DNA of 64,000 nt from Candidatus Omnitrophota bacterium (GTDB lineage: Bacteria > Omnitrophota > JACPQZ01): NCBI GenBank assembly GCA_016190205.1, contig JACPQZ010000038.1, positions 12,965 to 76,964 of the forward strand, in the 5' to 3' direction. Positions 1-12,561 of the stretch are shown one piece after another (position 1 is the first letter of the stretch; each line of letters opens with the position of its first letter). The notes under the pieces are model-generated. The model saw only the letters and a program-made list of their open reading frames with translations, was not told the origin of the DNA and ran no database searches. Made by a program: the position numbers and the translations under genes.

Positions 1-584
1 CAATCGGTGCAAACGGCGGAAGCCGCTAGCCCCTTCTTAAGAAGCGCCAACCCGTGCACGCTTTCCGCGTAACTTGCCACAGGCGTCTCCTCGGAGAGAT
101 GAAACTTCTTCATCTCATCCACCTGCTCGTGGCACTGGGCGCAGGTCGACGGGATATTCAGCCTGTAGACTGGCGAGTCGGGATGCCGCGAGGGAACCAG
201 GACATGGGGATCCCCGTGGCAGTCCCGGCAGGAGGCCGCCTCCGCAATGCCGGCCTTAAGCGCCCGGCCATGGTCGCTTTTCAGATACACTTCACTTTCG
301 ATCATATGGCATGTGGAACAGCTTACCGCTGGGAGGGGAACTGCGTGCGGTACAGCCTGAATTCCGCTGTGGCAGCTCGTGCACAAGTGTCCGCCATGAA
401 CAGAACTCTGGAATTTTTCCTGCTCCACGCGGGCGGGGCCGTCCGGGACGCCGTGGCAGGCAAAACAGGTTTCGTTATCTATGCCTTCCGCCCGGGCGGA
501 CGCCCCGGGCACAGCAATGCACATGACTCCGGCCGCAAGAAAACCAAGGCGCCACGCTACAAACCGCTTGTTCCTTGATGACAC
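1..584 (-). CDS. Multiheme c-type cytochrome, C-terminus cut by window edge
   Basis: Reading the minus strand from a GTG at 584 gives a signal-peptide-like start (basic residues, then a hydrophobic stretch ending ASARAEG). Five heme-binding motifs follow in order: CFACH, CTSCH, CSTCH, CRDCH and CAQCH. A further Cys (VCTD) sits right at the edge and probably begins a sixth. The protein is therefore an exported, periplasmic electron carrier. The start overlaps the end of the upstream NapC/NirT-like gene by 28 bases, so the two are probably translationally coupled; no strong ribosome binding site is visible. It is the last gene of the cytochrome operon that fits in the window. The total heme count and any membrane anchor cannot be judged because the 3' end is missing. 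Confidence 0.8.
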   Translation of the reverse strand, partial: MSSRNKRFVAWRLGFLAAGVMCIAVPGASARAEGIDNETCFACHGVPDGPARVEQEKFQSSVHGGHLCTSCHSGIQAVPHAVPLPAVSCSTCHMIESEVYLKSDHGRALKAGIAEAASCRDCHGDPHVLVPSRHPDSPVYRLNIPSTCAQCHEQVDEMKKFHLSEETPVASYAESVHGLALLKKGLAASAVCTD

Positions 585-2071
585 TGGCTGCACTTAAACT
601 CCGTGACGTCCATCCCCAAATCGACCGGGTGTCTAAAGGGCTGGGACACGAGGCTGGCCGCCGCAACTTCCTGCGGGGGCCCCTGGGCCAAAATGGTGTG
701 GCAGGCATTGCAGTCTTTGGTAATGGTATGGCCCTCGCCTGAGCGGTGCAGGCCGTCGTGACAGCGGAAACAGCCCTCGGAATTCAAGTGCCCGATGTGA
801 TCGGGGTAGGCCCTCCAGTCGGCCTTCATCTCGGGAAAGAAATTGCGCGCGTAAATCTTCCCAAGCTCCTCGGCGGACCGGCGGATTTCCAGGGCTTTTT
901 CGCGTGCCAGATCAGGGAAACTCCTCTCGTAATACGCGGCAAGACCCTTTTGGATTTTGCTCACAGCCTCATCCTCCGAGAGGTACGGCTCTGCTAAAAT
1001 TCTAATCGCCTCGCGCTTTAAGTAGGGAAGGGTGGGGTCCAGCCGTTCTGTTTCAAAAGCCCGTTCCACGGCGCGGTCGGGGGGATGGAAATGATGGCTG
1101 GGCCTGTTGTGGCAGTCCATGCAGTCCATGCGGCGCACTTCACGGGACGCGAGCTCCCCGGCCGTCAGGGGGTTTTCCGTCGAGACGTATTCCGTGGCGT
1201 GCCCCCCGCGGTCCACGACCTTGATCCAGGGAATCTCCTCCCGGCCTTCGTCACGGGCCGCATAGTAGATTTCCTTATTGATATTCATATGCCAGTGGAT
1301 GCCGGCCGGGGTTCCGCGCTCCGGATCACCGCCTCCCACCTTAATCAGCATCTGGATCTGCCAGGGAGAGTTTGTCTCATCGGCCAGGTAGTGCTGAAAA
1401 ACTTTTTGTTTCGCCCCGAAAAACTTCTCCGGCCAATGGCACTGTTCGCACGTCTCCTGGGCGGGTCTTAAGTCCTCGATGGGAGTGGGAATTGGGCGGG
1501 GGTACTTTTTGAGCGACACGGCATAGACCTGATAGGCCCCCGTGATTTTGGAGCGCACAAACCAGCTTGCGCCGGGCCCCACGTGGCACGACGCACAGGC
1601 CACGCGCGCGTGGGGGGAGTGCTGATACGCCGTAAACTCGGGCTTCATGACCTGGTGGCACACGAGCCCGCAGAATTCGACCGACTCCGTGAAGTGATAC
1701 GCGCGGTAACCCGTAAGCGAGAGGAGCATCACCCCGGTCATCGCGACGAGAAATGCGCCCAACAAAAAGGCCCTGTGAGAGGGCCGGTTGAGATCGAGGC
1801 TGGGGAGCCTCGTCTGCCCCAGCTCGGGCCTCCTCTTCCTGCGCCTGCGCTCCCAAAGGAGACCCAAGAGAATGAGGATTACCCCCGCGGTCGCCCCCAT
1901 GGGGCATACGAGGTAAATGACGACGCCCAGGTAGGCGTTCGTGTGGCGGCTGAAAAAATCCGTCACCATGAGGGGAAGACCAACCGCGGTATTTAAGCAA
2001 GCGATACCTATCCCAAATAAACTTACCGGGTTACGTATGAGGCCTACGGGTCTTAAAGGACGTTTATCCAC
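557..2071 (-). CDS. NapC/NirT-like membrane-bound multiheme cytochrome c, 7 hemes
   Basis: Two hydrophobic segments occur in the N-terminal third (around RNPVSLFGIGIACLNTA and then the GVILILLGLL and FLLGAFLVAMTGVMLLSL stretches), followed by a periplasmic domain with seven heme motifs: CGLVCH (CX3CH), CASCH, CEQCH, CMDCH, CFRCH, CNACH and CSQCH. A CX3CH first site after an N-terminal anchor recalls the NapC/NirT/NrfH quinol-oxidising family, but the protein (about 504 residues) is much longer than a simple NapC. I prefer the GTG start at 2071, which overlaps the upstream stop by 8 bases. An in-frame TTG at 2128 lies inside the previous gene. By inference it passes electrons between the quinone/Rieske-b module and periplasmic cytochromes. 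Confidence 0.82.
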   Translation of the reverse strand: MDKRPLRPVGLIRNPVSLFGIGIACLNTAVGLPLMVTDFFSRHTNAYLGVVIYLVCPMGATAGVILILLGLLWERRRRKRRPELGQTRLPSLDLNRPSHRAFLLGAFLVAMTGVMLLSLTGYRAYHFTESVEFCGLVCHQVMKPEFTAYQHSPHARVACASCHVGPGASWFVRSKITGAYQVYAVSLKKYPRPIPTPIEDLRPAQETCEQCHWPEKFFGAKQKVFQHYLADETNSPWQIQMLIKVGGGDPERGTPAGIHWHMNINKEIYYAARDEGREEIPWIKVVDRGGHATEYVSTENPLTAGELASREVRRMDCMDCHNRPSHHFHPPDRAVERAFETERLDPTLPYLKREAIRILAEPYLSEDEAVSKIQKGLAAYYERSFPDLAREKALEIRRSAEELGKIYARNFFPEMKADWRAYPDHIGHLNSEGCFRCHDGLHRSGEGHTITKDCNACHTILAQGPPQEVAAASLVSQPFRHPVDLGMDVTEFKCSQCHQGTSGL

Positions 2072-3347
2072 TATGAGTGGGTCCCTTTTTGTCCATACTG
2101 CGGATCTTCGCAATGAGGGCAAGGACAAAGATTCCCAGGAGGGCCACGGTAACCCAGAGACCCTTGCGGCGGAAGTAGACCTCTTCGACCGCCTTTTCTC
2201 CCGCCTTCCGGGCCTCGTCTGCGTGGGCCAGGCCCTCGCCGGCCACCGATTTCACTTTCTCGATCGAAAAGGAATGCACATAGGCCCGGGTCTGCGTGAG
2301 CCGTGAAGAAGCCTCATGGAGCGTATACTCGGCGTCCTCCATGTCCATGCCAAAATGATGGGCGCGCTGGATACTTTCCTCGGCCCCCTGGATGCGGGCC
2401 TTCAAATCCTCAACTGCCGCGCGCATCGCCTGCGCCGTTTCAAATCCTTTTGAGCCCGGCTCATGACAGCGCGCGCAGAAAGACTCCGGCCCCGTGCCCA
2501 GCATCTCATCGGAGGTCTTTTGAATGGCGTGGTTTCCGTGGCACACCTCGCATTCCGGAAGCCCCAGGGCCTCGTGGACCATCTTGTGCGGGCTGGCCGC
2601 GAAAAGGTCGCGCGAGAGGCTGTGGCACTGGGCGCAGACATTCCCTACCGCAATCGCCCCTGGCTTGGAGGCCTCGTGAGAACCGTGGCAGCTCGCGCAA
2701 TGCGGCGCCCCCCGGTCACCGGCCACAAGAAGAGCCTGTCCATGCACGCTGTGGGCGTAGTCCCAGTGCTGGTTCACGGGCAGCCCGTGACGCTTCATGA
2801 GATCCGCATCCGTGTGGCAGACGGCGCAGGTCCCGGGGATATTCGTGGCGTAAACGGGAGAGAGCGGGTCCTTGGCTGAACGGATGCCGTGCACTCCATG
2901 ACAGCTCGTGCAGACCGCTACATCTTCATCCCCGGCGGCGTTTGCCTTGCCGTGCTGGCTCGTCAGATACTTCGCATACTGATCGGTGGGAAGATTAGGA
3001 TTAAAGCGCCGCATAAAGGCGGGATCCGCGTGACAGCGCGCGCAGAAGCCGGGGATATCCTGGCGGGCGGGACGGCCCACGAATCCCTTTTCAAGGGCCA
3101 TAGAAAGAGTCGGATCCTGTGCAGCAGGGTCACCCCCATGGCAGTCGGCGCAGGTTAAGCCCCGCTTAGAATGCACATCAACTTGAAAAAGAGCGGCGGG
3201 GCCGCGGGTTTGGCCCTCCAGCATCTCGTGGCATTCGGCGCACGTGTTTAAAGGCGCGGCCCAGGCTGACACCGCCGGCCACATGGCGAGGCTTAAGCCT
3301 GCAAGAGAAAAAATAAGACGCCGTATCAATGCCGAGCTATGAACCAT
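2064..3347 (-). CDS. Nine-heme c-type cytochrome with C-terminal membrane anchor
   Basis: A signal peptide (RRLIFSLAGLSLAMWPAVS, then AWA/AP) precedes nine CXXCH sites: CAECH, CADCH, CARCH, CTSCH, CAVCH, CASCH, CAQCH, CEVCH and CARCH. After the last heme comes a charged helical region of about 90 residues and a single hydrophobic helix (WVTVALLGIFVLALIA) near the C-terminus. The heme domain would thus sit in the periplasm, tethered to the inner membrane. The ATG at 3347 overlaps the end of the cytochrome b gene; a TTG at 3330 overlapping the cytochrome b stop (TTGA) is an alternative. Placement straight after Rieske and cytochrome b suggests it replaces cytochrome c1/f as electron partner of the b complex, which is inference. 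Confidence 0.85.
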   Translation of the reverse strand: MVHSSALIRRLIFSLAGLSLAMWPAVSAWAAPLNTCAECHEMLEGQTRGPAALFQVDVHSKRGLTCADCHGGDPAAQDPTLSMALEKGFVGRPARQDIPGFCARCHADPAFMRRFNPNLPTDQYAKYLTSQHGKANAAGDEDVAVCTSCHGVHGIRSAKDPLSPVYATNIPGTCAVCHTDADLMKRHGLPVNQHWDYAHSVHGQALLVAGDRGAPHCASCHGSHEASKPGAIAVGNVCAQCHSLSRDLFAASPHKMVHEALGLPECEVCHGNHAIQKTSDEMLGTGPESFCARCHEPGSKGFETAQAMRAAVEDLKARIQGAEESIQRAHHFGMDMEDAEYTLHEASSRLTQTRAYVHSFSIEKVKSVAGEGLAHADEARKAGEKAVEEVYFRRKGLWVTVALLGIFVLALIAKIRSMDKKGPTHSG

Positions 3348-4411
3348 TTGGCGTATACCGTCATCCCTATCATGTAGAAAACTGTCAGAAACCCCGCGAG
3401 CCAGGCGAGCCAATGCGCTTGGCCCCGGGCCGCCGGCCGGTCGAGCCAGGGGACTAAGATCAAGACCAGCCCCGCAAGACCCATGGCGACAATCGCCACA
3501 AGCTCCCCCTCAAGCCCCAGGATGTGCCCCGGGAAAAACTTGAGCGTCTGAAACATCCACAAAAAGTACCACTCCGGCTCGATTCCGGCCGGTGTCGGGG
3601 CAAAGGGATCCGCCTTCTCGCCCACCGTGGCCGGATAATAGGCGCTCAAGGCAAGCACTATCCCGAGCATGACCGACCAGGCGGCCAGATCCCGCAGGAG
3701 AAAATTTGGGATAAAGGGCATGGCGCGCTCCGACCGCACGGATAAAGGCCGGCTCATCCCCTGAAGCTGAACCATCATAAGATGCGCGCCCAATAGGAAG
3801 AAAAGGCAGACGGGGAGCGCCGCGATATGGAACCAAAAGAAGCGGGAAAGTGTCGCGTCCCCCACATCCGCCCCGCCGCGCAGGAAAGTGCTCAACACCT
3901 TTCCGATCACAGGGACGCTTGAGGCGATCTCCGTCCCCACTTTTGTGGCGAAAAAGGAGAGCGTGTTCCAGGGAAGGAGGTACCCGGTGAAACCAAAGCC
4001 CATAAGGAGAAAAAAAAGGAGACAGCCCGTGACCCAGGTGAGCTCCCGGGGCGGCCGGTAGGCCTTCAGGAAAAACGCGCTCGCCATGTGGATGAAGGCC
4101 GAGAGGATAGCCATGTTCGCCGCCCAGGCGTGCACCGAACGCACGAGCCACCCAAACTCGACCTTCGTCATGATAAGGCGCACCGACTCGTGCGCCTCGC
4201 CCACAGAGGGCCTGTAGTACAAAAGGAGGAGGAGCCCGCTCAAGATCTGCACCGCGACCAAGACAAGCGTCGTTCCGCCCAGATAGTACCAAAGAGAGTG
4301 GCCGTGGACCGGCACAGTCTTGTGCGTGACAAGCTCGCCCAAGCCCCCCAAGTTGTAGCGGGCTTGAAAAAAAGACTTGAGCCTCTCGCGGGCGCCCATG
4401 GGTGAACCCAT
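3326..4411 (-). CDS. Cytochrome b of a bc/b6-type complex (b6 and subunit IV fused)
   Basis: A 361-residue polytopic membrane protein with heme b ligand pairs H94/H108 and H195/H210. The second pair is 15 residues apart, the spacing typical of b6-type rather than mitochondrial bc1-type cytochrome b. A PEWY quinol-site motif (GIEPEWYFLW) lies in the C-terminal part, so the b6-like and subunit IV-like halves are in one chain, with C-terminal helices reaching FYMIGMTVYAKW. Its role is quinol/quinone redox chemistry and proton translocation together with the Rieske protein encoded just upstream (4-base gap). I chose the ATG at 4411, just after the Rieske stop; an upstream in-frame start at 4456 lies inside the Rieske gene. 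Confidence 0.9.
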   Translation of the reverse strand: MGSPMGARERLKSFFQARYNLGGLGELVTHKTVPVHGHSLWYYLGGTTLVLVAVQILSGLLLLLYYRPSVGEAHESVRLIMTKVEFGWLVRSVHAWAANMAILSAFIHMASAFFLKAYRPPRELTWVTGCLLFFLLMGFGFTGYLLPWNTLSFFATKVGTEIASSVPVIGKVLSTFLRGGADVGDATLSRFFWFHIAALPVCLFFLLGAHLMMVQLQGMSRPLSVRSERAMPFIPNFLLRDLAAWSVMLGIVLALSAYYPATVGEKADPFAPTPAGIEPEWYFLWMFQTLKFFPGHILGLEGELVAIVAMGLAGLVLILVPWLDRPAARGQAHWLAWLAGFLTVFYMIGMTVYAKWFIARH

Positions 4412-4415
4412 CGCG

Positions 4416-4877
4416 TTATCCGGTCTTGGTGACCACGACGTCTTCCCCGCGCACATTCACCTCGTAGTTTTCCAGGGGACGCGGGGGCGGGCCGGAAATG
4501 ACTTGTCCTTTGAGATCGAATCTCCCGTTGTGGCAGGCGCACCAGATGGAGCGGGAGGCATCGTCGTACTGAACCGTGCAGTTTAAGTGGGTACAGACGG
4601 CGGAGTAAGCTTTGAGTTCCCCCTCAAGGGTGTGCACCAAAAGCCCCGGCCGGTTCCCGAAGCGGAAGATCTTGGCCGAATTGGGTTTTAAGTCGCCTAT
4701 CTTGGCCGCGACGACGCTGGATTGTGCGGCCTCAACGCCTGGAGGGGGCTTGAGATAACGCAGGATGGGATAGAAGGCGGCGGCCAGAATGGCAAGGAGC
4801 GAGCCGTTTAAGGCGGATTGACAGAAAGACCTTCGTGTGATGAAAAACCCGCGTGCTCCCGGGCGATCTGCCCTCAT
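4416..4877 (-). CDS. Rieske [2Fe-2S] protein of cytochrome b complex
   Basis: A 153-residue protein with an N-terminal twin-arginine-like export and anchor signal (TRRSFCQSALNGS followed by a hydrophobic helix LLAILAAAFYPIL). The C-terminal Rieske fold has both cluster-binding boxes, CTHLNC and CACHNG, the latter followed by a GPPPRPLENYEV loop. It carries electrons from quinol at the P side to a c-type cytochrome. It immediately precedes cytochrome b and follows the outer-membrane barrel gene in the same orientation. Full length for a small bacterial Rieske protein; all ligand Cys and His residues are present. Confidence 0.93.
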   Translation of the reverse strand: MRADRPGARGFFITRRSFCQSALNGSLLAILAAAFYPILRYLKPPPGVEAAQSSVVAAKIGDLKPNSAKIFRFGNRPGLLVHTLEGELKAYSAVCTHLNCTVQYDDASRSIWCACHNGRFDLKGQVISGPPPRPLENYEVNVRGEDVVVTKTG

Positions 4878-4905
4878 GTGACTTTACCCCCACCCAGAGA
4901 TCGTA

Positions 4906-6963
4906 TCAGAAGGTCTTGGAGACCGCAAGTGAGACGAGATGCGCCTTGTACTTTCCTATTTCAGCCTGCGAGCCGGGCTGGTAGTGGTAATACCCGTACT
5001 CGGCCCTGACCGAGGTGTCTTGAGCAAGCTCACAGCGGAGGCCGCAGGTGAGATCAATTTGACCAAAGTCCGCACCCAGCGGAAGCCCGGTCGACGTAAA
5101 ATCGTTGAAATTGTCGGCCTCGGAATACTGCGCAGAGGCGTCGAGCGTAAGATTGGGTCTCATCATATAATCGGCCCCGACAAGCCAGGTATTGACGTCC
5201 GCGTTAAACACCGGGACCTGCCCGCTTGCGGCAAGCCTCGCCGGGGTCACGGTGGCCGCCGTCTGATGCGAGAATGAGCCCATCAGCATGAGCTCCCTAA
5301 GCACGTGGATGGTCAGGTCATAAGTATAGGTGTGTGAGGTAAACTCGCTTTTCCTCCTGGGCTCGCTTTCCGCGCGTGTCAGGTAATCTTTGTCCTGAAG
5401 CTGATAACGAAATGAGGTGCGGACCTTGCGGACGGGACGAAGGCTCACGCGCGCCATGATCTCATCCGTATCGATACTCATCCCGTCCATAAAGGCTGAA
5501 CGGGCCGCGGTCGAACCGGGATCGGTCTCAAAGAGATCGTCATAGTCCTGGTTGTCCCGGCGGTGCCGGTAGTGGGTGGTGAGATCGACATAATGCACCG
5601 GGGTCACCCTGCCTCCCACGGTCACAGTCCCCCGATCGGCATCCGTAATCGTGTCGCGCTCGAAGCTGACAGCGCCGGTGGCGTAGCTCACAGACTGCTC
5701 TTCCAGCTTGATCCTGGACTGCTCAAGCTCTAGTTCCGAGTAGAGCGCCGTATAGGGGATCCCGGTGTAATGGATGTTGAGCCCCTCCCCCCACCTCACG
5801 GCTGTCGAGTCATTGGTGCTGATTTCGGCCTCTTCAACAAATCCGTCAGGCGTGCTGCCGCCCGAACTATTGGGATTACTATCCTCCGGATACCTGGAAT
5901 TGCTGTCCCGGCTCACCAGTTCTGACTTAAGTTTAAGTCCCACTGCCACGTCCTCCCACTCATAGAGCACGGCATTTCCCACCCACGTATGGGTAAAATA
6001 ATCATTATCAGCGGTGGCATCCCGCTTTTGCTTGGGGTTACTGAAATTGGTGATCACCCCGTTCTCATTCGTTTCAAAGATGTCTTCCAGTTCCGTAAAA
6101 TTGAGATACGCGAACTGGTAACCCCCCGACGTAAAGAGTTTCCGGTCCCAAAACCACCTTTCTGCACCTAAGAAAGTTGTGTACAAATCGCTCTCCGGGC
6201 TTTGGAGTTGCCGCCGGATCTTTTTGTCGGAAGCTGTCGTGGTCGTGGAGAGGCTCTTTTCTACGCGGGTCGATTCGGTCCGGACGAATTCCACGTGCTG
6301 TTTCCCCGTGAGCCGCGCGCCGCGAAAGTCATCTGCGACTTCGAGCTCCAGCATATCCACCCGCTCATCAAAGTCCTGCCACGAGGGCCCGATAAAACGC
6401 GTGGTGCTCCCTTCCTTCACTCCCGCCCAGGTCAAACGGGATTTCGCCCCATCCTTAAACTCACGCTCATACGTAAAGGTGATTTCCGGCACGTCTTCCT
6501 TGCGGAGCCCGGTCTTAAAACCGAAGTGGCCGATCTCAAGTTCAAGATCTTTATCCGCATCCTGGCCGGACAAGGTGCCGAAGCGGTAGTACACGCCTCC
6601 GGTATTGTCAAAGTACTTGCTGAACTCATTGTAGTCAAACGTTAGAAAACCCAGACCTTCTTTTTTTAGCGTAATCTCCCCTCCCAGATCGTTCTGATCT
6701 ATGAGGGCATGCGCCTCGGAGGAGAGCTGGGTGCCATCCGCGAGTCCATAATTAAACTCGAAGTCCTCCACGCCAAACACGTAACGATCGCGCATCCACT
6801 GGTGTTCCCGAAACTTAGGCCTGTCTCCATCCACAGAGATATATCGCAGCGGGAGAACAGAAATCCCAACCTCGGGATCCCCGGCCTGCGCCGGGCCGCC
6901 CCATGAGAGCAGAACCCACATCGCTCCGGCCGATAATAACCCGATGATCTTGGCGCGCATCAT
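4906..6963 (-). CDS. MtrB/PioB-like outer-membrane beta-barrel
   Basis: A 685-residue exported protein: signal peptide (AKIIGLLSAGAMWVLLSWGG, cleavage near AQA) and then almost entirely alternating amphipathic beta-strand sequence with many aromatic residues, ending in Phe (SLAVSKTF), as expected for an outer-membrane barrel. Size and the adjacent DmsE/MtrA-like cytochrome gene fit the porin partner of a porin-cytochrome conduit (MtrB/PioB/MtoB type). I do not see the N-terminal CXXC pair found in Shewanella MtrB, so exact family membership is uncertain. The proposed job is to hold a multiheme cytochrome across the outer membrane so electrons can cross. ATG at 6963 follows a GGGG-rich ribosome-binding region. 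Confidence 0.75.
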   Translation of the reverse strand: MMRAKIIGLLSAGAMWVLLSWGGPAQAGDPEVGISVLPLRYISVDGDRPKFREHQWMRDRYVFGVEDFEFNYGLADGTQLSSEAHALIDQNDLGGEITLKKEGLGFLTFDYNEFSKYFDNTGGVYYRFGTLSGQDADKDLELEIGHFGFKTGLRKEDVPEITFTYEREFKDGAKSRLTWAGVKEGSTTRFIGPSWQDFDERVDMLELEVADDFRGARLTGKQHVEFVRTESTRVEKSLSTTTTASDKKIRRQLQSPESDLYTTFLGAERWFWDRKLFTSGGYQFAYLNFTELEDIFETNENGVITNFSNPKQKRDATADNDYFTHTWVGNAVLYEWEDVAVGLKLKSELVSRDSNSRYPEDSNPNSSGGSTPDGFVEEAEISTNDSTAVRWGEGLNIHYTGIPYTALYSELELEQSRIKLEEQSVSYATGAVSFERDTITDADRGTVTVGGRVTPVHYVDLTTHYRHRRDNQDYDDLFETDPGSTAARSAFMDGMSIDTDEIMARVSLRPVRKVRTSFRYQLQDKDYLTRAESEPRRKSEFTSHTYTYDLTIHVLRELMLMGSFSHQTAATVTPARLAASGQVPVFNADVNTWLVGADYMMRPNLTLDASAQYSEADNFNDFTSTGLPLGADFGQIDLTCGLRCELAQDTSVRAEYGYYHYQPGSQAEIGKYKAHLVSLAVSKTF

Positions 6964-6977
6964 GCCCCCCTTAGCTT

Positions 6978-7754
6978 TTAATAGCGCAAATGGTCATCAA
7001 AATTCGAGCCGTGCGGTGCCGTGTGGCACCCGGCGCTAAAACATGTCCCTTGCGCAAGATTGGCCGTATGGCTTCTCTTGCCAATGGTCGGAAAATTAAC
7101 CTGGGTATGGCACCGCAGACACAGGGTGCTGTCACGCGCGATCAGCATCTTCGCATGCATGGAACCATGCACCTTGTGGCAGGTCGTGCAGCCCTCGCGC
7201 AGGGCCTCATGCTCCCACACGAAGGGCCCCCTCTGCTCCTTATGGCATTTGTAGCAGGCCTCGTTGATGTCCTGAAGGGTCGTGGCTGACCAGGGCCTGA
7301 CCTCGGTCCCGTGGGGGCTGTGGCAGTCGGCACAGCTCATCTTGCCCTCTAAGACAGGGTGATGAAAGGAAAGCTTAAATTCCATTTTCTTGTCCAGGTG
7401 ACATTCAAAACAGGTGCTGGGGTCCTTCCGGGGATTTACAATCCCTCCCACACCCTTCCCGCCCCCCGCCGCCACGTGGAGGCTCCCCGGGCCATGGCAC
7501 ATCTCGCAACCCTGCCGTTCAAGACCCTCTCCCTTCACATTGATACGCGCATGGGTGGAAAGCTTAAATTCCTGGTGCTCCTTGTCGTGACACATGGCAC
7601 ACGTCTCGGTACCAACGAATGTCGCTTCTTCGGACTCCTCTCCTTGAGGCTCACCCTCATCGGCCCACACCGATGTGGCACCCAATAGACACACGGCAAC
7701 GAAAGCAATCCCCCATCCCGCCTGTTTCATCAAACCTCTTCGTGAGCCGCGCAT
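6978..7754 (-). CDS. DmsE/MtrA-like multiheme cytochrome c
   Basis: A 258-residue exported protein with a signal peptide ending near VWADEG. Heme sites in order are CAMCH, CEMCH, CFECH, CADCH, CYKCH, CTTCH, CLRCH and a longer CX4CH-type site (CFSAGCH) near the C-terminus, so seven canonical and one atypical. Spacing and the repeated H-x-x-H-x-x-x-G-x-x-C-x-x-C-H pattern resemble the DmsE/MtrA/PioA decaheme family, though shorter by about two hemes. It lies 14 bases upstream of the barrel gene, as mtrA is next to mtrB. A strong AAGGAGG precedes the ATG at 7754. Proposed role: the heme wire inserted in the barrel. Confidence 0.82.
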   Translation of the reverse strand: MRGSRRGLMKQAGWGIAFVAVCLLGATSVWADEGEPQGEESEEATFVGTETCAMCHDKEHQEFKLSTHARINVKGEGLERQGCEMCHGPGSLHVAAGGGKGVGGIVNPRKDPSTCFECHLDKKMEFKLSFHHPVLEGKMSCADCHSPHGTEVRPWSATTLQDINEACYKCHKEQRGPFVWEHEALREGCTTCHKVHGSMHAKMLIARDSTLCLRCHTQVNFPTIGKRSHTANLAQGTCFSAGCHTAPHGSNFDDHLRY

Positions 7755-7771
7755 ATTTGTGCCTCCTTGGG

Positions 7772-8191
7772 CTATTCAGATTGTGCGGGAGTGCCCGCCG
7801 TATCCGTGCCCGCCGCACCACCCGCAGCCGGAGGGGTCACCCCCTCGGGATGCGACGCGGGATCCGCAAGATCGGTGCCCTGTTCCCATTCCATAAGATT
7901 GGCGGCTCCGTCCTGGTCGGCATCTTCCTGATCCAGGAGGTGGAAGTCCGCCTCCGCCAGGATCTTGGCCGCCCCTCCGGGCTTCGTGGCCTTGAGACTC
8001 AACCCATAGACATTGAGGTCATCCGCCTTTCCCATGGCCCCCTGGTGGCAGACCTTGCAGGAATAGGCCTTCGCGTCCTTCCCCGGATAGGCTTTTTTGA
8101 AGGTCATCAGGTTCTGAACCGTCGCCTCTGCGCCCGGGCAAACGGAAAAAAGAATAAAACTTGAGACGATTAAGAGACCTGCACGGGACAT
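7772..8191 (-). CDS. Small monoheme c-type cytochrome
   Basis: A signal peptide (SRAGLLIVSSFILFSVCPGAEA) is followed by a single heme motif, CKVCH, in SCKVCHQGAMGK, and a DxDxDG-like stretch (DADQDGAANLMEWEQGTD) resembling a thrombospondin/dockerin-type calcium loop. The tail is Pro/Ala/Gly/Thr-rich. About 139 residues. The ATG at 8191 is preceded by AAAGGAGGAAG and overlaps the end of the hemA-like gene by 22 bases, so this start is firmer than the in-frame one at 8227. It is probably a soluble periplasmic electron shuttle of the conduit; its partner cannot be deduced from sequence. Confidence 0.8.
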   Translation of the reverse strand: MSRAGLLIVSSFILFSVCPGAEATVQNLMTFKKAYPGKDAKAYSCKVCHQGAMGKADDLNVYGLSLKATKPGGAAKILAEADFHLLDQEDADQDGAANLMEWEQGTDLADPASHPEGVTPPAAGGAAGTDTAGTPAQSE

Positions 8192-9228
8192 GTGACTTCC
8201 TCCTTTAAAGGACCACGGTTTAACCATTCCATAAAATGCTCTACCTGATCATGCAAGATAAGTTCACACGCCGGGAGGTGCCTTCCCCGTTCCTTGAGCG
8301 CGGCTTGGGACGCGGCGGTAAGATCATCGATATTCTTAAGGTGCACGCCGCGCACCTCGCCCGCCGCGGGGTCCACGTTGCGGGGGACGGCGAGATCCAA
8401 TAGATAAACGGGTCTCCCGCTGCGGCGGGTCATGACGGCGAGCATGTCCTCGCGGCTTAATACATAATGGGGTGCCTGGGTTGAGAGTACGGCGAGATCC
8501 ACCTCTTCCAAATATCTCATCCCCTCTTCCCACGAAGCCCATCCTGCCCGGCAAATCTCCGCCAGGTCCTGGGCCCTGGAGAGGGTGCGATTGACGACCC
8601 AGAGCCGGCCCAATCCAGCCTGGGTGAGATTCCGGGCCGTAGACTCCGAGGCCTTGCCCGCCCCCCAAACGAGCGCGCTTCTACATTCAAGATCCTGTCC
8701 CAAGGACTCGCGCGCCCAGCGCACGACCATGGATCCTATGGAGGTCTGCCCCTTTGCGATATCGGTTCGCGAACGCACGAGGTGCGCGCAGTGAAATGCC
8801 TTCTGAAAAAGCCGGTTTAAAATGGAATCCGCGGCCCCCGCGCTTACGGCCGCGCCATAGGCGTGCTTGACCTGGGCCGTGATCTCGGTTTCTCCCAAAA
8901 TCATGGAATCCAGACCTGCCGTCACGCGAAAGAGGTGGTGCGCCGCCTCCCGCCTTTCCATCCAGTACAAGTGTGCCTCGAATTCGGAAGGCTCCAGATG
9001 ACTTAAGCCCGCTAAAAGCTCCACTCCTTGAGCGCGCGCTTCGTGGAGATTACCACTTACCGCGTAAAGCTCCGTCCGGTTACAGGTAGACAAAATAACC
9101 GCTTCCTGAATGGAAGCGGTTAAGAGTCCTGGGAGGGCCTTTGGTAAATCCCGTGACGGGATGGAAAGCCGCTCGCGCAGATGGATGGGCGCGGTGCGGT
9201 GATTCATTCCTAAGACGGATAGGGACAT
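8170..9228 (-). CDS. hemA: Glutamyl-tRNA reductase, short form
   Basis: Converts glutamyl-tRNA to glutamate-1-semialdehyde, the first step of heme synthesis by the C5 route. Seen: the N-terminal GMNHRTAP box, the catalytic Cys (C49) in STCNRTE, the GETEI..QVK block, and a Rossmann NADPH domain (LVWGAGKASESTARNL). The protein is only 352 residues and stops soon after the spinal helix (DQVEHFMEWLNRG), lacking most of the C-terminal dimerisation domain of the usual roughly 420-residue enzyme. The ATG at 9228 follows GGGAGGG, which decides the start. It is the first gene of the cytochrome operon, so it probably supplies heme precursor for more than 30 heme sites encoded downstream. It could be a second, dedicated copy. 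Confidence 0.88.
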   Translation of the reverse strand: MSLSVLGMNHRTAPIHLRERLSIPSRDLPKALPGLLTASIQEAVILSTCNRTELYAVSGNLHEARAQGVELLAGLSHLEPSEFEAHLYWMERREAAHHLFRVTAGLDSMILGETEITAQVKHAYGAAVSAGAADSILNRLFQKAFHCAHLVRSRTDIAKGQTSIGSMVVRWARESLGQDLECRSALVWGAGKASESTARNLTQAGLGRLWVVNRTLSRAQDLAEICRAGWASWEEGMRYLEEVDLAVLSTQAPHYVLSREDMLAVMTRRSGRPVYLLDLAVPRNVDPAAGEVRGVHLKNIDDLTAASQAALKERGRHLPACELILHDQVEHFMEWLNRGPLKEEVTCPVQVS

Positions 9229-9260
9229 GACCCTCCCAAACAAACGCTGTTTGAGCCCCC

Positions 9261-9304
9261 ATGATAAGACAGGTCCGGGGAGACTACTATGATACAGGTC
9301 ATAG
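9261..9304 (-). promoter_or_regulatory. Promoter and Crp/Fnr-type operator of the hemA-cytochrome operon
   Basis: On the minus strand a -10-like TATCAT occupies 9266-9261, giving an expected start near 9254. The perfect inverted repeat CTATGA-N6-TCATAG occupies 9287-9304 with its centre at 9295.5, exactly 41.5 bases upstream of that start, the class II activator position of Fnr/Crp proteins. TGA-N6-TCA is the family half-site spacing. Two Crp/Fnr regulators are encoded next door. Sequence is seen; regulation is inferred. Confidence 0.6.
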
Positions 9305-9389: not shown

Positions 9390-10055
9390 TTAATTGCAGT
9401 TTCGCAGGATACCCTTAAGCTGCCGGGGGGCTAATATCGTAATCCAGCCCCTGCCGGACGAAACCCATCCCTTTTGCTTGAGGTGCGCCAGCGTGCGGAT
9501 GGAGGTCTCCCAGCGCGTGCCCACCATACGCGCGAGCTCCTGGTGCGTAATGGGAACGGTCCGGCCGAAGGAATTTCGGAGTTTTAAGAGGACGTGCACG
9601 AGCCTCTGCTCCACGCTGGCCTGGGAGAGGCTGATCATCTCCGCCATGTGGCGCATGCGGTCGCAGCAGCTTAAGAGGACCCGGGATGCGAACTTGGGGT
9701 AGCGGCTTAACAGTTTAAGAAACGCGGCCCTCGGTATGCGGAGAAAGCTCGCATCCGTAGCCGCCACGGCGCGTGTGGAGTAGACGCCCCCCCCATCCAG
9801 GGCGGAGATCCCGCACAGGGCCTCGTCGGGCGTCAGGATAAAAATGGTGGCGTACCCCCCGTTTAAGGTGTGTTTAATAAGATACACCCAGCCGCTTTCG
9901 ATGATCCAGACAAACTCGGCCGGGTCCCCTTCATCGAAGATGACCTTGCCCTTCTTAAATTTAAGGAATTCCAGCTCCCGGGATAGGCCCCTCCGCGCCG
10001 AGCTCGGCATGGAGCAGAAATAGGAGATCCGGTCCAGGGAATCGAGGGTAATCAT
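9390..10055 (-). CDS. Crp/Fnr-family transcriptional regulator (second)
   Basis: About 221 residues: an N-terminal cyclic-nucleotide-binding-type beta roll (KGKVIFDEGDPAEFVWIIESGWVYL), a long dimerisation helix, and a C-terminal winged helix with the recognition region ITHQELARMVGTRWETSIRTL. No four-Cys iron-sulfur signature like that of E. coli FNR is visible, so oxygen sensing by a cluster is not supported. It is third in the nirA-crp-crp operon, 20 bases after the first regulator. The ATG at 10055 is chosen; a GTG at 10082 is an alternative. It is a candidate reader of the TGA-N6-TCA palindromes upstream of hemA and nirA. Confidence 0.87.
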   Translation of the reverse strand: MITLDSLDRISYFCSMPSSARRGLSRELEFLKFKKGKVIFDEGDPAEFVWIIESGWVYLIKHTLNGGYATIFILTPDEALCGISALDGGGVYSTRAVAATDASFLRIPRAAFLKLLSRYPKFASRVLLSCCDRMRHMAEMISLSQASVEQRLVHVLLKLRNSFGRTVPITHQELARMVGTRWETSIRTLAHLKQKGWVSSGRGWITILAPRQLKGILRNCN

Positions 10056-10102
10056 GGCGGTACCAAGATACCCCCTCGGCACGAAGTCTTCTATGATTAA
10101 GA

Positions 10103-10774
10103 TCAGGGTTTGGGAGAGTGATTGAGGAAAGCCGCCAGGCCTTCGGAATTGGTGATCGTGGTCTTGCCGCGTGAAGATTGAATCAAGCCCTGCTGCTTGA
10201 AACGGCTCAAGATCCGGATGGCCGTCTCATGGGTGGTGCCGGCGATCTCGGCAAACTCCTGGCGGGTCAACGGGATGGTACCTGAAAATTTCTTGCCCAA
10301 TACGAGCAGGGTATGGGCGAGCCTAAGTTCCGCCGGTTCGTACAGCCGGCAGCCGGCCCGTTCCACGATCCTCAAGCGCTCGCAGAAAAGGCACATGACG
10401 TCTTGCGTGAAATCAAAAGACCGCCTCATGATGCCGTGCATGGCCTGAATGGGAATGCGCATGACGGTCGTGGGCTCCGCCGCCACGGCATCCGCAGGGT
10501 AGGGCTTGCGGTCTAAGGAAGGAAGACAGCAAAACACCTCGCCGCGGGTCATGACACAAGTCGTACTCACCTTGCCGTCGGCCAGGACTTTTAAAAGATG
10601 CACGCGCCCGCTCTTGACGAGCCAAACGGCATCGGAGGGCTGGCCCTCATAAAAGATGACCTCTCCTTTGGCAAAATGCTTTTCGGACGAGGCCTCCGCC
10701 AGACGGTGCTGGTCTTCCCGGCTTAAACGGCGGAAGGGATCTGTCTTTTGAAGGAGCGCGCCATTTTCGGTCAT
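10103..10774 (-). CDS. Crp/Fnr-family transcriptional regulator (first)
   Basis: About 223 residues with the same architecture: beta-roll sensor (FAKGEVIFYEGQPSDAVWLVKSGRV), dimer helix and HTH (LTRQEFAEIAGTTHETAIRILSRF). The sensor domain carries a CC pair (EVFCCLPS) and further Cys residues (MCLFCERL), so heme or thiol sensing is possible but unproven. The ATG at 10774 overlaps the nirA stop as ATGA, showing translational coupling. It probably controls nirA itself and the cytochrome operon. The two regulators are clearly different proteins rather than a recent duplication. Confidence 0.88.
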   Translation of the reverse strand: MTENGALLQKTDPFRRLSREDQHRLAEASSEKHFAKGEVIFYEGQPSDAVWLVKSGRVHLLKVLADGKVSTTCVMTRGEVFCCLPSLDRKPYPADAVAAEPTTVMRIPIQAMHGIMRRSFDFTQDVMCLFCERLRIVERAGCRLYEPAELRLAHTLLVLGKKFSGTIPLTRQEFAEIAGTTHETAIRILSRFKQQGLIQSSRGKTTITNSEGLAAFLNHSPKP

Positions 10775-12561
10775 ACCGCGCACTCTCCCTGACCCACGGT
10801 GAGCTTAAATTCCTCTTTTTGATCCCAGTCCACGTACACGCCGCGGTTCGTGTCGTACTCCTCAACTTGGGCGAGGTCCTTCAAGGCCTCACGCGCGGCC
10901 TCGCGGTCGAGGCGTCTTAAGTACGCTGCGATCGATTCACCCGGGGCGCGTTCCTTGCGATAGAGCGCAATAATACGCTCAACCGCCTCGGGCACCTTTT
11001 TGGTAGGGAGCTTCATGATGGCGCGTCCTATCTGGCAGACTTCCTGGTCCATGCCGCCCCCGAAGAACATCTGCACATGGGGAACCTCACGGCCGTTACG
11101 AGTTCCCACCGCCCCGTGAAAGCCTAAGGCCGCGACGTGGTGCTGGCCGCAGGAATTGGGGCAGCCGCTGATTTTGATGGTCAAGTCCTTGACGTCCTCG
11201 TACTTCCCATTGCCCTGGGCAAACATCTCGTTCAAGGCCCGCGCAAGTCCTTTCGAGGACGTGATCCCGAGATTACAGGTATCCGCCCCGGGGCAGGCCA
11301 GGACATCGTAGACCTGTCCTGCCCCCGCCTTGGGAAAACCCAATTTTTGAAGCTCCACATAAAGAGCCAGGACATGTTCGTCACGGACCCAGCGGATGAG
11401 CACGTTCTGGGTAATGGAAAGCCGCACCTTGCCGTCGGCAAAACGGGTTGATAGTTCAGCCATGCCCCTCATCTGGGCGGGGGTCATATCCCCAATAGGA
11501 ATGAGGACCTCGACCGTGGAGTAACCCTTGTGCTTCTGGGGGAAGACGTTGGCCGCCTTCCAATGATTGAACTCGGGGCTCGTGAGCATCACCTTTGGCG
11601 GCGGGTTTTTAGGAGAGGGGGGAGGGGCCTCCTCCCACTTGGCTTTATATTCCTCGATATCCGGGTACCTGACGCCCTGGGCCTTCAAGGCTTCGGCCTC
11701 TTGCAAAACGCGCTTTTTAAATTCTTCAAAACCAATTTTTCTTACCAGAAACTTCATACGGGCTTGGTTTTTGTTGACGCGGTCTCCGCATCGGTCTTGA
11801 ATCCTGACGATCGCGTGCATGAGCCGGAGAAAATCCTTTTCCTGGACAAAGTCGGACAGGAGCTGGCCCACCATCGGGGCTGCCCCCAAGCCCCCGCCCG
11901 CATACATCTTAAATCCGCACACGGGTTTTCCGTTTACAGCCTTTATCTTGGGGACCAGGCCAATTTCGTTAAACGTCACCTGCCCCTCATTCTTATGCGA
12001 GGAGGCGAAATTGATCTTAAACTTGCGCGGGAGCTTCTGGCTGTCGGGGTGCCTTAAGAAATACGCGGAGGTCATGCGCGCATAGGGGGTGACGTCAAAA
12101 GGCTCTTCTGAACTCACCCCCGCCATGGGATCGGCCACCACGTTTCGGATGGAGTTGCCGCAGGCCTCCCGCGTTGTCAGGCCCGCCTCGTACAGAAGGC
12201 GCAATACGGTGGGCGTATCCGGGGTCTGGACGAAGTGTATCTGGATGTCCTGCCGGGTCGTGATGTGGCCCAGTTTGTGCGCGGTGTAGTTATCGATAAT
12301 ATCGGCGATACGCACGAGCTGATCGCGGGTTAAGATCCCCGAGGGGATCTTGATCCGGATCATGTGGTTCGTGCCGCCCTGCCTCTGGCCGTAGACCCCC
12401 CTCATCAGGCGAAAGGGCCTGAACGTATCGTCAAAAATCTCCCGCCTCAAGTAGCGGCTGACCATCTCGCTAAAATCAGAAAGATCCTTCTCAACTTCCA
12501 CTGGAAGGGGTATCCCGGAAGGTTTGAGGGCCCGCGAGGTTAGTGCGCTGTTCGTTTCCAT
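10771..12561 (-). CDS. nirA: Ferredoxin-dependent nitrite (or sulfite) reductase
   Basis: 596 residues, the normal length for this siroheme/[4Fe-4S] family. Two ferredoxin-like half domains are visible (ITTRQDIQIHFVQ in the first) and the cluster/siroheme Cys set is complete: CPGADTC followed by CPNSC in SGCPNSCGQHH. The CPNSCGQ form is more common in assimilatory nitrite reductases than in sulfite reductases, so nitrite to ammonia is favoured, though sulfite cannot be excluded. It is first in an operon with two Crp/Fnr regulators. Its promoter has a Crp-like palindrome. The tail CAV at the C-terminus overlaps the next gene. Confidence 0.85.
   Translation of the reverse strand: METNSALTSRALKPSGIPLPVEVEKDLSDFSEMVSRYLRREIFDDTFRPFRLMRGVYGQRQGGTNHMIRIKIPSGILTRDQLVRIADIIDNYTAHKLGHITTRQDIQIHFVQTPDTPTVLRLLYEAGLTTREACGNSIRNVVADPMAGVSSEEPFDVTPYARMTSAYFLRHPDSQKLPRKFKINFASSHKNEGQVTFNEIGLVPKIKAVNGKPVCGFKMYAGGGLGAAPMVGQLLSDFVQEKDFLRLMHAIVRIQDRCGDRVNKNQARMKFLVRKIGFEEFKKRVLQEAEALKAQGVRYPDIEEYKAKWEEAPPPSPKNPPPKVMLTSPEFNHWKAANVFPQKHKGYSTVEVLIPIGDMTPAQMRGMAELSTRFADGKVRLSITQNVLIRWVRDEHVLALYVELQKLGFPKAGAGQVYDVLACPGADTCNLGITSSKGLARALNEMFAQGNGKYEDVKDLTIKISGCPNSCGQHHVAALGFHGAVGTRNGREVPHVQMFFGGGMDQEVCQIGRAIMKLPTKKVPEAVERIIALYRKERAPGESIAAYLRRLDREAAREALKDLAQVEEYDTNRGVYVDWDQKEEFKLTVGQGECAV

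Follow-up and report, generated by a model that had tools for sequence, protein, structure and literature searches.

A gene run in Omnitrophota combines an MtrAB-like outer-membrane conduit with a Rieske/cytochrome b unit, ImcH-like and CbcL-like cytochromes and heme machinery

We analysed a window of 64,000 nucleotides from a Candidatus Omnitrophota bacterium (GenBank assembly GCA_016190205.1, contig JACPQZ010000038.1, positions 12,965 to 76,964; G000:C27:12965-76964 in our numbering; assembly of 1.65 Mb in 76 contigs, 92.8% complete), which begins with a dense run of cytochrome genes. As this run crosses the left edge of the window, the adjoining 12.96 kb of the contig (L002) were added to the analysis. 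Twelve co-directional genes lie on the minus strand over ~14.7 kb, from window position 9243 down to 1 and then on into L002, in the order HemA, monoheme cytochrome, MtrA-like, MtrB-like, Rieske, cytochrome b, 9-heme, 7-heme, 11-heme/b561, a 145-aa open reading frame (ORF), ResB and CcsA. From co-direction and spacing, we infer that they form one transcript. The original prediction, made from the letters of the window, had described an operon of nine genes. All nine were found at the given place and strand, but the run goes on with the 145-aa ORF, ResB and CcsA. Likewise, the last of the nine does encode at least five hemes, but it had been cut by the window edge; the whole protein carries 11 hemes, with a cytochrome b561 domain at its C-terminus.

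The MtrA-like and MtrB-like genes encode a candidate outer-membrane conduit. The family profile of the MtrA-like protein matched MtrA of the solved Mtr complex (6r2q_A, E 3.5e-42; 6r2q was taken as the Mtr complex from its title), and the score against TIGR03508 was 164 bits, below the cut-off of 192. The protein carries 8 heme motifs, 7 CXXCH and a last CX4CH, two fewer than decaheme MtrA. The Omnitrophota MtrA family shares these 8 motifs, and its terminal CX4CH is invariant. The proposed DmsE/MtrA-like cytochrome is thus confirmed as an MtrA homologue, but since the ten hemes are not reached, it is, by its motif count, a short-chain relative and no decaheme MtrA. Structure prediction of its neighbour, suggested earlier as a check, gave a closed MtrB-like barrel of ~26 strands (AlphaFold2, pLDDT 83.8). 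The model matched MtrB (6r2q_B) with a Foldseek E of 4e-13 and a VIA Z of 21.1 (rmsd 3.6 over 578 residues), whereas other outer-membrane barrels reached a VIA Z of only ~15. No match to the barrel profile was found among PDB sequences, and no relative of the barrel in plasmid collections. The model suggests that the protein is a large barrel of MtrB fold, encoded beside the MtrA-like gene. MtrA and MtrB co-diverge (r 0.81, 36 sequences).

The conduit genes are followed by those for a Rieske protein with the cluster ligands CTHxxC and CxCH (CTHLNC, CACHNG) and for a cytochrome b that unites the N- and C-terminal domains in one 376-aa protein and has the PEWY quinol-site motif. Cytochrome b scored below the cut-offs of the NCBIfam cytochrome b6 and ExtP models (ExtP, 207 bits vs a cut-off of 290) and had no relative in viral collections. 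The window cytochrome b appears to have no Cys at the position that binds the extra heme in b6. In all 17 of the 17 aligned Rieske proteins from the window and related loci, Gly replaces the potential-raising Ser, and the window protein has in addition Phe in place of Tyr. In the yeast Rieske protein, mutating this Ser or Tyr drops the potential by 130 or 65 mV, respectively (PMC12954380). On account of the two replacements and the effect sizes in yeast, we predict that the operon Rieske protein would be of low potential. A second, housekeeping Rieske/b complex is encoded elsewhere in the genome (contig C4), and its Rieske protein keeps the Ser. It lies near tatC-, polyprenyl-synthase- and ubiE-like genes on a contig without MtrAB.

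No gene for cytochrome c1 or f was detected in the operon. Instead there is a 9-heme protein with a transmembrane (TM) anchor, which is probably the c subunit of the Rieske/b complex. The divergence of the 9-heme protein closely follows that of cytochrome b (r 0.98) and of the Rieske protein (r 0.96), and r is 0.94-0.98 for all three pairs.

Two further proteins of the run resemble known quinone enzymes. The 523-aa 7-heme protein has three N-terminal TM segments, a membrane-proximal CX3CH (CGLVCH at 153) and six CXXCH, so that the seven hemes counted in the original prediction stand. Geobacter-type ImcH homologues are described as having three N-terminal TM segments, an adjacent CX3CH and six CX2CH within 495-519 aa (PMC6295460), and Geobacter ImcH shows the same layout in ~500-520 aa (PMC6295460, PMC9129911). 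Compared by this published description, the window protein bears the ImcH-family signature, for which 5-9 CX2CH and a NapC/NirT domain are expected besides the TM segments and CX3CH, and the CX3CH and seven hemes recur in 23 of the 24 long 7-heme homologues listed. In the 11-heme/b561 protein, a second conserved His is on hand for all 11 hemes, further conserved His lie in the membrane part, and the family profile matched FdnI (1kqf_C, E 2e-4). With a multiheme part at the N-terminus and, at the C-terminus, a membrane domain that has b-heme His, it fits the build of CbcL/MtrH/MtoC. CbcL of Geobacter combines a multiheme part and a cytochrome b membrane domain in the same way, with six TM segments, but has nine rather than 11 c hemes (PMC9129911). 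To date, the ImcH family has been implicated in quinol oxidation only, whereas the CbcL/MtoC family has been implicated in both directions of electron flow (PMC6295460). The ImcH-like and CbcL-like proteins and ResB/CcsA had been overlooked in the original prediction, and they make the tie to the quinone pool much stronger.

The run also encodes functions of heme supply. The operon HemA (357 aa) is short, as noted earlier, and lacks the C-terminal dimerisation domain, but the shortness is not a special trait, since the housekeeping copy on contig C31 is equally short (362 aa). The latter lies beside hemC, a cobA-hemD-like fusion and hemB, as named by eye from sequence. Operon-type HemA proteins form a single clade of six with 100% SH-aLRT, apart from other HemA copies, among them the second copies in the same genomes wherever such a lineage is present. 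As it belongs to this clade of its own, phylogeny supports that the operon HemA is a dedicated second copy, in agreement with the dedicated glutamyl-tRNA reductase proposed before. The monoheme cytochrome had no match in family searches and has homologues at three related loci (L080, L106, L111).

To see how widely the arrangement occurs, we turned to related loci. A search based on an alignment of the MtrA-like protein returned 80 named loci. Relatives with 48-77% identity have Omnitrophota in their titles, apart from two whose titles name no phylum, and the best outside hit was 42% identical (Verrucomicrobia). Within ~10 kb on each side of 37 related MtrAB loci (Omnitrophota by title in 35 cases, no phylum given for the other two), we found Rieske/b at 16, ImcH-like genes at 28, CbcL-like genes at 12, ResB/CcsA at 21 and HemA at 20, all of which are lower bounds because many contigs end early. 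The Rieske/b, ImcH-like and CbcL-like genes nearly always run in the same direction as MtrAB, and cytochrome b was co-directional with mtrA at each of the 16 loci that have it. Among 43 more distant MtrA loci, BLAST with the window proteins, which distant homologues may escape, detected Rieske/b once and neither HemA nor ResB/CcsA. One locus (L081) keeps the order hemA-mtrA-mtrB-Rieske-b-9h-7h-b561-resB, and three others (L077, L084, L104) keep large parts of it. Cytochrome b of this type and MtrB occurred together in 11 of 96 same-phylum genomes vs ~2.8 expected (Fisher p 4e-7, for genomes that are phylogenetically non-independent). Furthermore, two Rieske/b lineages, whose cytochromes b share 67-73% and 40-45% identity with that of the window, each lie beside MtrAB.

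The run is flanked by regulator and reductase genes (Table 1). NirA-like genes are also found close to the respective locus in L080, L084 and L087. The PhsA-like molybdenum (Mo) enzyme in the divergent cluster at the far end is the genome's sole PF00384 hit, and the same Mo enzyme (78-79% identical) is encoded close to the conduit in both L079 and L082. A tRNA-Asp called by ARAGORN within the cytochrome b gene (4119-4210) is probably spurious, since it is not among the Rfam matches.

Table 1 Genes of the run and other features (window coordinates unless L002 or L215 is given)
Feature	Position	Strand	Evidence or remark
HemA-like glutamyl-tRNA reductase, 357 aa	8170..9243	-	TIGR01035 306 bits, above cut-off; GlutR_N + Shikimate_DH
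Monoheme c-type cytochrome, 151 aa, CKVCH	7772..8227	-	one CXXCH, hydrophobic N-terminus
MtrA/DmsE-like 8-heme cytochrome	6978..7754	-	7 CXXCH + CX4CH; 6r2q_A profile match
MtrB-like outer-membrane beta barrel (predicted), 685 aa	4906..6963	-	AlphaFold2 model, Foldseek, VIA
Rieske 2Fe-2S protein, 153 aa, CTHLNC + CACHNGRF	4416..4877	-	PF00355 E 2.8e-14
Cytochrome b, fused b6 + subunit IV, 376 aa, PEWY	3326..4456	-	PF00033, PF13631, PF00032
9-heme c-type cytochrome, C-terminal TM anchor	2064..3413	-	9 CXXCH, TM 416-441
7-heme NapC/NirT-family membrane cytochrome, 523 aa, ImcH signature	557..2128	-	PF03264; 3 TM, CX3CH, 6 CXXCH
11-heme + cytochrome b561 (CbcL-like), 621 aa	window 1..593 (5' part), whole gene L002:11692-13557	-	11 CXXCH, PF01292 above cut-off
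145-aa ORF, no known family	L002:11223-11660	co-directional with run	
ResB	L002:9265-11007	co-directional with run	ResB family match
CcsA	L002:7497-9338	co-directional with run	Cytochrom_C_asm match
Crp/Fnr-type regulator upstream of operon	9390..10082	-	related regulator, same side, in L077
Second Crp/Fnr-type regulator upstream of operon	10103..10783	-	homologue upstream of hemA/mtrA in L077, L081, L083, L104
NirA/sulfite-reductase-like siroheme protein upstream of operon	10771-12561		
Divergent cluster at far end: phosphate-porin-like barrel, PhsB/DsrO-like Fe-S protein, PhsA/ArrA-like Mo enzyme, TorD	L002 1982-7227		
Housekeeping Rieske/b complex, then cupredoxin-like gene, then COX2 cut by contig end	L215 1-4030 (contig C4)		

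Together, the gene content and its recurrence make it likely that the operon serves specifically to carry electrons between quinone pool and cell surface, with its parts acting as one chain, whichever way the electrons run. Quinol would be oxidised by three kinds of enzyme, namely Rieske/b with the 9-heme protein, the ImcH-like heptaheme protein and the CbcL-like 11-heme/b561 protein, of which Rieske/b with its TM-anchored 9-heme c subunit could add proton translocation by a Q-cycle. The electrons would then cross the periplasm to the 8-heme MtrA in the MtrB barrel and reach an external acceptor, while the extra HemA and ResB/CcsA would supply heme and attach it at the ~36 c-heme sites. We infer the working as one chain, the outward net direction and the nature of the external partner alike from the genes. 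The original prediction held that sequence does not decide the direction of flow, and we agree. Given such a chain, the ImcH-like protein tips the balance slightly towards net outward flow, with net inward flow somewhat less probable.

Several observations weigh against this reading. No MtrC-like gene for a surface cytochrome was found at these loci. Several relatives have MtrAB without a nearby Rieske/b, and the distances of MtrB and cytochrome b are uncorrelated (r 0.08), for which reasons the conduit and Rieske/b appear to be two separable modules that have been reshuffled. Homologues lacking one half, named beforehand as evidence against a single pathway, therefore do exist in part; the repeated linkage of conduit and Rieske/b within the phylum upholds that proposal, but not as one indivisible pathway. 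A route to the quinone type by way of the UbiA family was abandoned, because the sole hit lies among sugar-/glycan-type genes, unlike a quinone prenyltransferase. Finally, COX1 (heme-copper oxidase) is encoded in 15 of the 18 searched genomes with these loci. Neither COX1 nor cytochrome bd was found in the window's own genome, but a COX2 gene with the CuA motif lies at the end of contig C4, and the oxidase of this genome seems to have been lost at an assembly gap. Considering this CuA-type COX2 and the oxidases of the relatives, anaerobic respiration with outward flow is not a necessary conclusion, and the missing COX1 was rejected as proof of it. In one relative (L228, on the same contig as L089), the extracellular electron transfer (EET) locus has an oxidase cluster and a Rieske/b complex of the C4 type beside its Rieske and 9-heme genes.

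The oxidases would suit electron uptake, whereby the conduit oxidises an external donor, e.g., Fe(II), in the manner of MtoAB/PioAB, and electrons run downhill to cytochrome oxidase or nitrate reductase, while some are driven uphill into quinones by way of the low-potential Rieske/b, CbcL-like or ImcH-like proteins. MtoAB and PioAB are likewise not known to have an MtrC-like gene. At one related locus (L082 12831-15691), NapA (994 bits, above cut-off) and a NapB-like cytochrome directly follow mtrAB and would fit nitrate-linked electron uptake. QrcABCD-like quinone-reductase sets (5-heme QrcA-like, QrcB-like, QrcC-like and NrfD/QrcD-like) stand between mtrB and the Rieske gene at two others (L078 3845-9123, L080 13959-18952), although their scores lie below the curated NCBIfam cut-offs. 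While the CbcL/MtoC family has been implicated in both directions, the frequent ImcH-like proteins belong to a family tied to quinol oxidation, and several parallel quinone enzymes better match quinol oxidation at differing acceptor potentials, as in Geobacter. We therefore regard uptake as possible but doubtful.

The modularity could also mean that conduit and Rieske/b are neighbours merely through a shared need for c-type heme assembly (HemA, ResB/CcsA), with no electrons passing between them. Relatives that have one of the two halves at the locus and the varying partner modules (Qrc-like, NapAB) are consistent with this. Yet co-direction and tight spacing, the two Rieske/b lineages that each came to lie beside MtrAB, the presence in the same units of ImcH-like and CbcL-like relatives of known EET quinol oxidases, and the location of the genome's other Rieske/b complex on a contig without MtrAB all make such a mere cytochrome island improbable. 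Still less probable is that Rieske/b takes part in a nitrogen or sulfur reaction in the periplasm, catalysed by a 9-heme subunit of HAO/octaheme-like type as has been suggested for anammox complexes, the link to the conduit being incidental. The 9-heme model came nearest to HAO and octaheme reductases, but it is of moderate confidence (pLDDT 74.5, pTM 0.58), the Foldseek E was just 6e-3, and the VIA Z of 10-12 falls in the range below ~13 that for helical models may reflect merely a common arrangement. Across 11 homologues, nine proximal but eight other His are invariant, which, read with the model, weakly hints that one heme site may be open.

Compared with known systems, the route from quinone pool to cell surface favoured here has partial precedents. 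MtrAB(C)/DmsEF of Shewanella, MtoAB of Sideroxydans/Gallionella and PioAB of Rhodopseudomonas share an MtrA-family gene followed by a gene for an MtrB-fold barrel. The operon here differs from them in having 8 rather than 10 hemes with a last CX4CH, in lacking MtrC or DmsAB, in a barrel without a PDB sequence match to MtrB, and in its tie to Rieske/b, ImcH-like and CbcL-like genes. Combinations of MtrAB with CymA or MtrH are known (PMC6295460). Geobacter clusters with a porin, multihemes, Rieske and b are also on record (PMC5877670, PMC2825233), and the claim that the two halves were known only separately was overstated: extHIJKLMNOPQS, implicated in selenite/tellurite reduction, is a single cluster that encodes a porin of the outer membrane along with multihemes, a Rieske protein and a b6-type cytochrome b (PMC5877670). 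However, its ExtI is a phosphate-porin-like barrel, neither MtrB nor a Pcc conduit, whereas the barrel here is MtrB-like; two genes encode b6 and subunit IV there, against one fused gene here; and ext has no ImcH- or CbcL-like gene. The Rieske/b complexes of Kuenenia (PMC12954380) likewise join a Rieske/b core to a multiheme c subunit, possibly HAO/octaheme-like, but both Kuenenia Rieske proteins keep the Ser that is replaced here, and in the present operon no NAD(P)H-handling genes were seen and an outer-membrane conduit is linked.

For Omnitrophica, three ImcH-like and three CbcL-like proteins were counted previously, and mtrAB was never adjacent to imcH (PMC6295460), unlike here, where an ImcH-like gene adjoins mtrAB. 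The main survey of Omnitrophota reported metal reduction on the grounds of FeGenie cytochrome hits and conductive pilins; by term search, its text has no mention of MtrA or EET (PMC10066038). Within the open-access literature (subscription papers and preprints being outside this scope, and two papers naming Omnitrophota and MtrA once each set aside), no earlier account of MtrAB in Omnitrophota, or of this operon, was found. The operon is real and well conserved, and its combination of genes departs from the precedents of ext and of MtrAB with CymA or MtrH.

We put forward, tentatively, that a Q-cycling Rieske/b complex is wired through the membrane-anchored 9-heme protein into MtrAB. The bc step would then let EET itself conserve energy, in a phylum for which EET has not been known, and the module would carry along its own genes for making heme and maturing cytochromes c. 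Geobacter ext raised the question of a role for bc-type complexes in EET and did not settle it, and in Omnitrophota, a phylum still poorly known, conduit, Rieske/b, ImcH-like, CbcL-like and heme machinery repeatedly come together in one gene run. The operon offers a concrete gene set for testing iron cycling and electron exchange in groundwater and soil Omnitrophota, which it could link to iron or other minerals.

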